Assembly: GCA_016778675.1 (NCBI GenBank)
Contig: JADHPA010000003.1
Location: forward strand, 1-47,319
Reading direction: 5' to 3'
Length of the DNA stretch: 47,319 nt
Source of the DNA: Candidatus Pelagibacter sp.
Lineage (GTDB): Bacteria > Pseudomonadota > Alphaproteobacteria > Pelagibacterales > Pelagibacteraceae
The position numbers and the translations under genes are program-made. Below are positions 41,104-45,425 of this stretch, piece by piece. Within the stretch, counting starts at the first letter, position 1. Each line of letters opens with the position of its first letter. Under the pieces are notes generated by a model. It was not told where the DNA came from. It searched no databases and saw nothing but the letters and a program-made list of their open reading frames with translations.

Positions 41104-43584
41104 ATGAGTAAAAATAAAATTACTGCTGTTCTCGGTCCAACTAACACTGGCAAAACCTATTTAGCGATTGAAACAATGCTATCATTTGATTCGGGAATGA
41201 TTGGTTTTCCCTTAAGACTGCTTGCACGAGAGGTATATGACAAGATAATAAAAAAAATTAGCCTAGATAAAGTTGCACTAATTACTGGTGAAGAAAAAAT
41301 TATTCCAGCAAATGCAAAATATTTTCTTTGTACGGTAGAGTCAATGCCAGTTAACAAACATTTAGATTTCGTTGGAATTGACGAAATACAAATGTGTGCA
41401 GATCATGAAAGAGGTCATATTTTTACTGACAGACTATTAAACCTTCGTGGAGAAAAGCTAACTATGTTTATGGGGTCTAGCACTATTAAAAATATCATAA
41501 ACAAATTAGATGAAGATACCGAATTCATTAATAGAGAAAGACTTTCTAAACTTTCATATGTGGGCCATAAAAAGATTTCAAGAATAAATAGAAAAACAGC
41601 TATAATAGCTTTTTCTACTGAAGAAGTTTATGCAATCGCAGAACTTGTAAGGAGACAAAAGGGTGGAGCAGCAATAGTTATGGGTTCTTTAAGTCCAAAG
41701 ACTAGAAACGCACAAGTAGAACTTTATCAATCAGGTGATGTTGATTTTTTAGTTGCTACTGATGCGATAGGAATGGGTATTAATATGGATTTAGAAAATG
41801 TCTATTTCTCAAATTTAAAAAAATTTGATGGGAAAAAACAAAGACGCCTCAATATGTCTGAGATTGGTCAAATAGCTGGAAGAGCAGGCAGATATTTAAA
41901 TGATGGAAATTTTGGTATTACTGGAGATTGCAAAGAAATTGCTGCGGAAGAAGTTGAATTACTTGAAGGTCATAAATTTGAAGAGATTAGAATGTTGTTT
42001 TGGAGAAATTCAAATTTAAATTTTAATAATGCTTTAAGTTTAATTAAATCACTAGAAGAAAAACCAAATACACATTGGTTAAGAAAAATACATGAGTGTG
42101 GAGATGAAAAGGTTTTAAGATATTTTTTAAAAGATTTAAAAAGATTTAATATTGAAAACAATAAAGAGACCCTAGAATTGCTGTGGGAATGCTGTCAAAT
42201 ACCTGACTTTGTAAAAAAGACGTATGGCAATCATATAGAGGTTGTGAGTAAAGTTTTTGGTTTTTTAAACAGCAAAGAAGGCAGAATTACTAATGATTTT
42301 ATGCGTCTACAACTGATGAAATTAGATAAATTAGAAGGAAATGTAGATTCTTTATCAAATAGAATTGCAAATGTTAGAACTTGGTCATATGTTTCTAATA
42401 AAATTAACTGGGTTGAAAATCAGGGGTATTGGATTGAAAAAACAAAATTATTAGAAGATAGATTGTCTGATAGATTACATGAGGAGCTTACCAAAACTTT
42501 TATCGACAAAAGAGCCAGTGTGCTAGCAAGAGGATTAAAACAAGATATAGAATTTAAAACTGAGATAATGGAAGATAATAAAGTAATAATTGATGATCAA
42601 TTTATTGGGAGCTTAAAAGGCTTAAAATTTGAAATGGATTTAAAAGTTGGAGCCTTGGAAACTGATATTAAGTCACTAAAAAAAGCAGCCAGACAAACAG
42701 TAGGTCCAGAATTACAAAAACGGATTGGATCGATCATAGAAACTGGATTAATAGAAATAAAAGATGATTTTAAAATTTATTGGAAAGATTTTCCTATTGC
42801 AAAATTAACTACTGGTAAAGATTATCTCAATCCAGATTTACTTTTAATTGTAGATGATATTTTAGAAAATAATGATAAGCAAAAACTATCTGATTTTCTT
42901 GAAAAATGGATTAAAGAAAAAATTAATTACATACTAAAAAGTCTGATTGATTTAAGAAATCTAAAAGAAAGTAATTCATCAATAAAAGCTTTGGCTTATC
43001 AGCTATATGAAAATAATGGCGTTATAAAAAGAGAGATTGTTTCTGACTATTTAAAAAAACTTGGCCAGGATGAAAGAAAGATTTTAAGAGATATGGGTGT
43101 TAAATTTGGGAGATATCATGTTTTCTTATTTAGATTACTAAAACCAGAAGCTGTCTCCTTAAGAACTTTATTGTGGAAAAACTTTAATCAAAAATACTTT
43201 GATCTAACACCTCCAACATTTGGCTTAAATTTTTTAGAAGATAAAGATATTAAGAATAAAAATTTTATGCTTCTTTGTGGATTTGAAAATTTTGATAATT
43301 ATTATGTTAGGATCGATATTTTAGAAAGGTTATTTGTTCAGATAATAAACTCAAATAATGATAAAGATAAAGATATAAAACTAGTTCCTGAAATGCTAAA
43401 TTTATTGGGATGCAGCAAGGATAACTTTAAAAACTTAATTAAGAAAATGAATTATAAAATAATAGAAAAAGATAAGGAGATATATTTTAGATATAATCCA
43501 AAAAGACAAATTAAAAAAGCTTTTAAAAAGAAAGAAACTTCAAATAGTCCTTTTAAAGTTCTAAAAAATTTTAATTTTAATTAA
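41104..43584 (+). CDS. SUV3-like DExH-box helicase
   Basis: Motif I LGPTNTGKTY, motif II VGIDEIQM, VATDAIGMGINM, QIAGRAGRY as in mitochondrial SUV3. Confidence 0.88.
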   Translation: MSKNKITAVLGPTNTGKTYLAIETMLSFDSGMIGFPLRLLAREVYDKIIKKISLDKVALITGEEKIIPANAKYFLCTVESMPVNKHLDFVGIDEIQMCADHERGHIFTDRLLNLRGEKLTMFMGSSTIKNIINKLDEDTEFINRERLSKLSYVGHKKISRINRKTAIIAFSTEEVYAIAELVRRQKGGAAIVMGSLSPKTRNAQVELYQSGDVDFLVATDAIGMGINMDLENVYFSNLKKFDGKKQRRLNMSEIGQIAGRAGRYLNDGNFGITGDCKEIAAEEVELLEGHKFEEIRMLFWRNSNLNFNNALSLIKSLEEKPNTHWLRKIHECGDEKVLRYFLKDLKRFNIENNKETLELLWECCQIPDFVKKTYGNHIEVVSKVFGFLNSKEGRITNDFMRLQLMKLDKLEGNVDSLSNRIANVRTWSYVSNKINWVENQGYWIEKTKLLEDRLSDRLHEELTKTFIDKRASVLARGLKQDIEFKTEIMEDNKVIIDDQFIGSLKGLKFEMDLKVGALETDIKSLKKAARQTVGPELQKRIGSIIETGLIEIKDDFKIYWKDFPIAKLTTGKDYLNPDLLLIVDDILENNDKQKLSDFLEKWIKEKINYILKSLIDLRNLKESNSSIKALAYQLYENNGVIKREIVSDYLKKLGQDERKILRDMGVKFGRYHVFLFRLLKPEAVSLRTLLWKNFNQKYFDLTPPTFGLNFLEDKDIKNKNFMLLCGFENFDNYYVRIDILERLFVQIINSNNDKDKDIKLVPEMLNLLGCSKDNFKNLIKKMNYKIIEKDKEIYFRYNPKRQIKKAFKKKETSNSPFKVLKNFNFN

Positions 43585-44012: not shown

Positions 44013-44335
44013 CATACCTAGTAAATGAAAAATGTATTAAATGTAAATTAATGGACTGTGTTGAGGTTTGCCCTGTCGATTGTTTTTACGAAGGAAAAAA
44101 TATGCTTGTAATTAAACCGGAGGAGTGTATAGATTGTGGCGTTTGCGAGCCAGAATGCCCTGTTGACGCTATAGTAGCTGACACTGAGTCTGGTAGCGAA
44201 AAATGGCTTGAAGTAAATACTAAGTATTCAGAAATCTGGCCGAATATAACAGTTAAAAAAAATCCTCCTGAGGATAATGAAAAATATAGAAATGAAGAAA
44301 AAAAGTACGACAAATATTTTGGCGAAAATCTTTAA
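44009..44335 (+). CDS. fdxA: ferredoxin FdxA
   Basis: [21 protein letters not shown] ... [16 protein letters not shown] Fe-S cluster motifs. Confidence 0.95.
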
Positions 44336-45185
44336 AAAATCTACTAAGAAAAAAACTAAAAAGAAAACTGCTGCGAAGGTGGTAAAAAAAGTCTCAAAGC
44401 CAAAAATAAAAAAAGTTAAAAAAGTAGTTACTTCAAAAAAAACTAAAGTTATTAAAAAGACTACAGTAAAAATAAAAAAAAATTTAAAAACAATTTCAGT
44501 AAAAACTGCACCTCAAAATATTGAAATTAAGACTGATAATTTAAGAATTTCAAAAAGTAATGAAATTAAACCTGAAATTATAAAGGTAAAAAAACAAGAA
44601 ACTGAAAAAAAAGAATACAAAGTAAAAGACTATGTTGTGTATCCAAAACATGGCGTTGGTCAAATTACTGAATTTAAAAAAATCAACATTGGTGGAATAG
44701 ATGTTGAAACTTATGTCCTTAAATTTGAAAAAGATAAAGCTAATGGAATGGTGCCAGTAAATAAACAGTCTCACCTTAGACCACTTGCAACCATCAACCA
44801 AGTTAACAAATGTATATCCATTTTAAAAAGTAAACCAAAAGTCAAAAGATCAATGTGGAGTAGAAGAGCCCAAGAGTATGAAGCAAAAATATCTTCTGGT
44901 AAAATCTATGAACTTGCTGAGGTAGTAAGAGATTTAAATAAAGGTGATGATTTGATGGTTGATCAATCTTATAGCGAAAGACAACTTTTTGAAAAAGCAT
45001 ACGAAAGAATTTTATCTGAATTTCAAATAGTAATGGGTGTATCACTAGAGGATACACAGAAAAAACTAGATAAGGCACTTAAGAGAAATCTTGAAGGACA
45101 AGCCAAGGCTGCTGTAGCAGCTCCTACTAAAGCTGTAGAACCTGATGAGCCTGAGGCTGATCCAATTACCGATACTGAGGATTAA
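44277..45185 (+). CDS. CarD family transcriptional regulator with long lysine-rich N-terminal extension (start 44277 or 44292)
   Basis: CarD core [27 protein letters not shown]...[13 protein letters not shown]; residues 1-~110 very Lys-rich. Confidence 0.88.
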
Positions 45186-45195
45186 AAATTAGAGC

Positions 45196-45239
45196 AAAAA
45201 AAACGCCTCTCACACATAACGTTATGAGAAGCGTTTTTT
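45196..45239. terminator. bidirectional intrinsic terminator between carD and the 29-aa basic peptide gene
   Basis: AAAAAACGC(45198-45206)/GCGTTTTTT(45231-45239) stem extended by TCTCA/TGAGA; T-run on both strands (8 A on the left, 6 T on the right). Confidence 0.85.
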
Positions 45240-45254
45240 GAAAAGATTAAGATA

Positions 45255-45344
45255 CTATCTTTTTCTTCTCTTAGCTTTTTTAGCTTTTTTAGCTTTTTTC
45301 TTAGTTTTCTTTTTAGCTTTTTTAGCTTTTTTTCTTGTAGCCAT
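45255..45344 (-). CDS. 29-aa Lys/Ala-rich highly basic peptide (histone-tail-like), not in ORF track
   Basis: Manual translation MATRKKAKKAKKKTKKKAKKAKKAKRRKR*; SD AGGGAG at 45351-45356, 6 nt before ATG; own promoter and terminator. Confidence 0.75.
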   Translation of the reverse strand: MATRKKAKKAKKKTKKKAKKAKKAKRRKR

Positions 45345-45366
45345 CTTTAGCTCCCTGTTTAAGTTA

Positions 45367-45387
45367 AACGAATCAAATTGATTCGTT
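45367..45387. promoter_or_regulatory. perfect 10+1+10 inverted repeat AACGAATCAA-A-TTGATTCGTT in the leader of the basic peptide gene
   Basis: Read directly; begins a few nt downstream of the predicted transcription start on the minus strand. Confidence 0.8.
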
Positions 45388-45396
45388 GATAACTTA

Positions 45397-45425
45397 TTTT
45401 TATTTTTTTATGCAAGTGATGTCAA
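45397..45425 (-). promoter_or_regulatory. candidate sigma70 promoter for the 29-aa gene
   Basis: Minus strand TTGACA (45425-45420), 17-nt spacer, TAAAAA (45402-45397). Confidence 0.65.

Follow-up and report, generated by a model that had tools for sequence, protein, structure and literature searches.

What a short perfect palindrome does between a consensus promoter and the gene for a very basic peptide is the question raised by the minus strand near the end of the window (the whole stretch of Candidatus Pelagibacter sp. DNA analysed here, 47,319 nt). The first-pass annotation had described TTGACA-N17-TAAAAA followed by a perfect 10+1+10 palindrome, and the sequence bears out both elements at the coordinates given for them. 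The −35 element TTGACA lies at 45420-45425, and the −10 element TAAAAA, identified by inspection of the sequence and strongly conserved inside Pelagibacter, follows at 45397-45402 after a 17-nt spacer. Judged from the −10 spacing only, transcription is predicted to start at 45389-45390. The inverted repeat AACGAATCAATTTGATTCGTT (45367-45387) begins 2-3 nt beyond this predicted +1; its position, arms and perfection were as annotated, but the central base had been printed from the other strand, which is immaterial. The same positions are predicted to fold as RNA into a 9-bp stem with a 3-nt loop. The 5′ arm holds the heptamer CGAATCA (45379-45385, TGATTCG on the plus strand), a candidate CcrM/GcrA-type site, and the 3′ arm holds a second heptamer, TGATTCG, in inverted orientation (45369-45375). 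Next come a Shine-Dalgarno sequence, AGGGAG, read from the sequence (45351-45356; AGGGAGCTAAAGATG is near-invariant in Pelagibacter), and the Lys/Arg/Ala-rich gene of 29 codons (45255-45344, ATG at 45344). An intrinsic terminator hairpin at 45196-45239 (17-pair stem, −21.5 kcal/mol, then a U run) is common to the peptide gene and a convergent CarD-like gene on the plus strand (44277-45185; PF02559 and PF21095 matches), and a comparable hairpin is also present in relatives.

Taken without comparative data, a short perfect palindrome is only mildly unusual in such AT-rich DNA. AACGAATCAATTTGATTCGTT occurs once in the window, where chance would give 0.01 matches with up to 3 mismatches allowed. 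Inverted repeats with arms of at least 10 and a spacer of at most 8 numbered 10 in the window against 2.4 in shuffled sequence, and those whose arms each contain 3 or more G/C numbered 3 against 0.55. A consensus promoter match within 500 bp was not significant either (1 observed, 2.2 expected). The observation is nevertheless real, because promoter, 5′ arm and gene recur together in orthologous leaders, and not because the palindrome is rare.

These leaders were collected through the neighbouring carD-like gene (PF02559). A direct protein search with the 29-aa peptide reached 3 genomes only, since its low complexity masks it, and the convergent carD-like gene was therefore used as the anchor; its nearest named counterpart, in a Candidatus Pelagibacter MAG, has 99% protein identity to that of the window. 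The search yielded 159 untruncated loci from 10 genera of the SAR11 order, namely Pelagibacter, five others of its family and four of a second family (genera are labelled g1-g10 and families f1 and f2 below). A Lys/Arg/Ala peptide gene lies convergent with carD in all 159. Another 7 loci failed extraction, and each of them ends at or close to a contig edge. At 19 carD-like loci from alphaproteobacteria outside the order, sampled at class level, no such Lys-rich ORF lay alongside.

All of the 159 leaders share the promoter, the 5′ arm and the gene. CGAATC was present in 159/159, a count that is partly circular because the extraction pattern demanded [CT]GAATC, although only truncated loci were lost by it. 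TTGAC[A/T] lies 38-41 nt upstream of CGAATC throughout (TTGACA in 155, TTGACT in 4). The start codon, in contrast, follows CGAATC at anything from 36 to 63 nt, so that it is the promoter, not the start codon, that fixes the position of the element. Strings of the promoter-CGAATC type with a Shine-Dalgarno sequence were found in 150/247 genomes of the order and none were found in a reversed control, and TTGACA-N30-37-CGAATCA occurs exactly once per genome, always at the peptide gene, in 29 of the 41 genomes searched.

The inverted repeat as a whole fared less evenly among the orthologues: its 5′ arm is invariant and its folding is kept, but its second arm varies by lineage. The latter reads GATTCG in Pelagibacter, most members of which retain the full heptamer, GATTCA in f2 and GATTTG in g8 and g9, where G-U pairing preserves the stem. 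In g5-g7 the arms outside CGAATCAC are new yet complementary, as in CACTTAAA/TTTAAGTG and CACATAAT/ATTATGTG. Between the half-sites the spacer measures 4 to 8; long spacers in f2 start with AC and end with GT, or start with AA and end with TT. Two conserved half-sites at a fixed spacing, as a dimeric operator would have, were thus not found among these leaders, and a palindromic operator for a dimer was rejected on the variable spacing and the second-arm changes in f2 and g5-g9. By this comparison the conserved unit is the 7-mer CGAATCA/TGATTCG rather than the full 21-bp palindrome. As five genera have lost the second heptamer and yet keep the folding, the second arm seems to be retained mainly for the RNA.

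Folding is indeed general. All 94 distinct orthologous 5′ ends were predicted to fold better than shuffled sequences (mean z −3.5, 94% below −2), and pairing begins within 0-5 nt of the predicted +1 in 89 of them and at 7-8 nt in the other 5. In g5 and g7 this predicted gap before the stem, 7-8 nt, is long for a protector of the 5′ end. The covariation sought as a mark of an RNA hairpin was absent from lineages that keep both arms, as counted with a fixed structure, 420 of 500 shuffles pairing equally well; retained arms are almost invariant and therefore give no signal on shuffling. Sliding the partner, on the other hand, lowered pairing from 0.86 to 0.25-0.53. The 5′ stem-loop of the annotation thus survives in so far as folding is preserved when the second arm changes, but its core lacks covariation. 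Sequence comparison indicates that the 5′ arm is conserved as sequence and the 3′ arm as structure, and that the hairpin is conserved is more certain than the part proposed for it in stability. Searches of Rfam gave nothing over the gathering cut-off, the best scores being rli38 at 28.8 (cut-off 49) and rhtB at 26.5 (cut-off 55), and no carD or basic-peptide leader is named among the structured RNAs of Cand. P. ubique in Meyer et al. 2009 (PMC2704228).

Control of access to the Shine-Dalgarno sequence, also suggested by the annotation, finds no support in Pelagibacter: the sequence lies outside the stem, and occlusion by the 5′ hairpin was rejected there. In f2 and g7 leaders a separate element can pair with it (CUCC or CUCU with GGAG), and in one genome (G045) CCC/GGG of this element is swapped for CGC/GCG. 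This element, absent in Pelagibacter, may provide translational control in f2 and g7.

The conserved heptamer resembles a known methylation-linked motif, a reading absent from the first-pass annotation and new here. CGAATC is followed by A in 158 of the 159 leaders and by G in one, and the A is retained even in lineages whose RNA leaves it unpaired. On the strand opposite to the gene the heptamer is accordingly TGATTCG in 158 and CGATTCG in one, all of which fit YGAKTCK. According to PMC7987155, TGATTCG, or more broadly YGAKTCK, is the extended GcrA motif proposed for activation in Caulobacter crescentus, and GcrA sites both up- and downstream of promoters are said there to be active; the GcrA findings of Haakonsen 2015 and Wu 2018 are used as relayed in PMC7987155 and PMC7403470. 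A CcrM in SAR11 has been noted previously, together with the scarcity of GANTC in CcrM-bearing genomes (PMC3973325). GAATC lies near +5 of the predicted start in 159/159 leaders, inside the −40 to +40 range taken for GcrA/CcrM-regulated promoters. A GcrA gene was found in the window's own genome and in 21 of 26 genomes, and a CcrM-type RAMA-domain methylase in 23 of the 26; the latter was not found in the window's own assembly, which is 78% complete. CcrM methylates GANTC with any N, and plain GANTC with a free N was rejected as the sole constraint, N being always A in the 5′ arm.

The heptamer recurs at other genes. TGATTCG was found 9-52 nt upstream of the clpX start in 27/27 genomes from both families, within otherwise variable intergenic DNA. 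In the clpX leader of one Pelagibacter genome (G103) TATAAT is followed by 13 nt and TGATTCG, a post-start position similar to that in the window, where TAAAAA is followed by 11 nt and CGAATCA. Upstream of recA in f1, approximately 30-40 nt from the gene and after a conserved GAACAAAATGTGTACATTT box, the site reads TGATTCG, CGATTCG, TGAGTCG or AGATTCG, the first three of which fit YGAKTCK; the recA site is absent in f2. At clpX and recA the heptamer is preserved without a palindrome. Single copies were also seen elsewhere: in the g5 genome G104, one CGATTCG precedes an HU gene (PF00216) by 11 nt and another precedes clpP by 1 nt (G104:C1:253973 and 348020). The window itself holds three heptamers, one of them at 41187-41193 inside a helicase gene (41104-43584), and in the complete genome G012 CGATTCG lies 79 nt upstream of the orthologue of this gene.

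Coding DNA, in contrast, avoids the word. The main test used 766 kb of coding DNA from G012 (1,343,202 bp), in which the heptamer had the lowest ratio of 4757 7-mers, with 2 copies observed and 35 expected. Synonymous-codon shuffles of the same DNA gave ratios of 0.39 for GAATC (z −21.5) and 0.42 for GATTC (z −18.0) with controls at about 1, and GACTC and GAGTC were not depleted. The ratio for GAWTC was 0.39 in G104 (g5) and 0.41 in G037 (f2), so that it is close to 0.4, with z near −20, in three genera from both families; for the heptamer it was 0.06 and 0.22 respectively. GASTC was slightly enriched in the coding DNA of the three genomes (1.3-1.5). Both orientations are depleted, which makes avoidance at the RNA level, for example through an RNase, unlikely. 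Over the stretches from the three genomes the heptamer was 19 to 44 times as dense between genes as within them, on small intergenic counts of 1 to 4. One f2 intergenic copy resembles part of a tRNA gene.

The peptide gene is real and under selection: single codon changes among close pairs were synonymous in 66% of cases, against 18% expected. Its products consist of 54% K, 20% A and 14.5% R and are 21-99 aa long over the order (21-35 aa in Pelagibacter, 40-99 aa in f2). Those of f2 contain AAPKK repeats and have a fixed MEELK or MEDLK start. Comparison of the peptide with Pfam and NCBIfam models gave no match. The peptide is probably a DNA- or RNA-coating protein; its gene may be highly expressed, as the annotation had suggested.

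We consider it somewhat better than an even chance that a promoter-proximal CcrM/GcrA-type site and a 5′ RNA hairpin together control this Lys/Arg-rich peptide gene. A strong σ70-type promoter would drive the single small gene through a control region of two layers. At the DNA level, TGATTCG at about +5 to +11 of the predicted start would be the CcrM/GcrA-type site, with its GANTC core methylated by CcrM, and the second arm in Pelagibacter would supply a further, inverted heptamer. GcrA on σ70 RNA polymerase would act through this site in its methylated or hemimethylated state and raise initiation, so that transcription of the peptide gene would follow passage of the replication fork; the methylation, GcrA binding and the direction of its effect are inferred. 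At the RNA level, the hairpin at or near the 5′ end most likely shields the short mRNA from 5′-end-dependent decay. This arrangement suggests that the peptide gene is linked to chromosome replication in SAR11. We are surer of a DNA site as such than of its assignment to GcrA; the weak points of the reading are a site that lies beyond the start, an avoidance narrower (GAWTC) than GANTC and a core without covariation.

The second of these points leaves room for another factor, as coding DNA avoids GAWTC and not GASTC whereas CcrM accepts any N. A DNA-binding protein other than GcrA, a repressor or activator with a small regulon including clpX and recA, might read TGATTCG independently of methylation; the avoidance is strongest for the heptamer, and N is always A or T at clpX and the peptide gene. 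The recA sites, however, include TGAGTCG, which the GcrA consensus allows, and GcrA and CcrM are both encoded, and we regard such a protein as rather unlikely. We hold it unlikely, too, that the RNA is all that matters, with a 5′-terminal stem-loop stabilising the mRNA, a 5′ arm constrained by initial transcription or an RNA-binding protein, and no methylation-linked control. The folding of all lineages despite second-arm change, and the f2 spacers that lengthen with complementary ends, are as expected of it, but it does not account for an A that is invariant though unpaired, for the agreement with the GcrA motif, for the avoidance of this word on both strands of coding DNA or for the heptamers before clpX and recA that have no palindrome.

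The hairpin might alternatively serve the peptide itself, which would bind its own leader and repress its own translation. Arg/Lys-rich peptides can bind RNA hairpins, and hairpin and peptide gene co-occur in every genus seen; the Pelagibacter hairpin nevertheless leaves the Shine-Dalgarno sequence uncovered, and we think such autoregulation improbable. Least probable of all, with hardly any weight in our estimate, is the roadblock that the annotation had envisaged, in which a dimeric repressor on the 21-bp palindrome over +1 blocks transcription. The location over the start site and the near-invariance of the arms inside Pelagibacter would suit it, but it appears largely refuted already by the changes in the second arm, with its loss in g5-g7, and by the variable half-site spacing, which together make a fixed-spacing dimeric operator unlikely; the site is, besides, single in each genome and has no regulator gene next to it. 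What stands of the proposed operator is a DNA site, in the form of the 7-mer CGAATCA/TGATTCG.

SAR11 cells are among the most abundant in the ocean and poor in regulators, and how their gene expression is coupled to chromosome replication is poorly known. A 7-bp word that has been purged from coding DNA but is fixed before clpX, before the peptide gene and before recA of one family makes this question testable in cultured strains. The locus also flags an order-wide family of very basic peptides that match no Pfam or NCBIfam model and may be a main chromosome-coating protein of these small genomes. More tentatively, and as a possibility that we hold to be short of probable, SAR11 may run CcrM/GcrA control in a reduced form, with a small set of strictly conserved targets (clpX, the Lys/Arg-rich peptide, HU in at least one lineage and recA in one family) and a site just past the transcription start. 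At the peptide gene the methylation site would be the 5′ hairpin arm as well, so that a single word would both couple transcription to replication and control the mRNA of a peptide that coats the chromosome.

Several known systems share parts of this design. Like the 5′ stabilising stem-loop of the E. coli ompA type, the SAR11 hairpin is a stem-loop at or near the mRNA 5′ end that is placed relative to the promoter and not the start codon; unlike it, its 5′ arm is invariant in sequence across genera and the mRNA is tiny and monocistronic. The Pelagibacter leader resembles symmetric operators of the lac type over +1 in that a near-perfect inverted repeat covers the bases transcribed first; across the SAR11 order, however, the half-sites differ in spacing and the second of them is not conserved. 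The peptide recalls lysine-rich histone H1-like or protamine-like bacterial proteins in its extreme Lys/Ala/Arg content and, in f2, its AAPKK-type repeats; it differs from them in having no Pfam or NCBIfam match and in its small size in Pelagibacter. With the GcrA/CcrM epigenetic promoters of Caulobacter (such as mipZ, podJ and ctrA P1) the leader shares TGATTCG/YGAKTCK at a σ70 promoter and a pair of nearby GANTC sites, which has been reported for mipZ; both GcrA and CcrM are encoded, and GANTC is scarce in coding DNA, in SAR11 as far as GAWTC goes (PMC7987155, PMC3667746, PMC3973325). In the best-described Caulobacter cluster GANTC lies between −35 and −10 (PMC4287350), whereas the SAR11 site lies just beyond the predicted start. 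The paired candidate sites of SAR11 form an inverted repeat transcribed as a hairpin, avoidance is restricted to GAWTC, and the putative targets are clpX, recA and the Lys-rich peptide gene.
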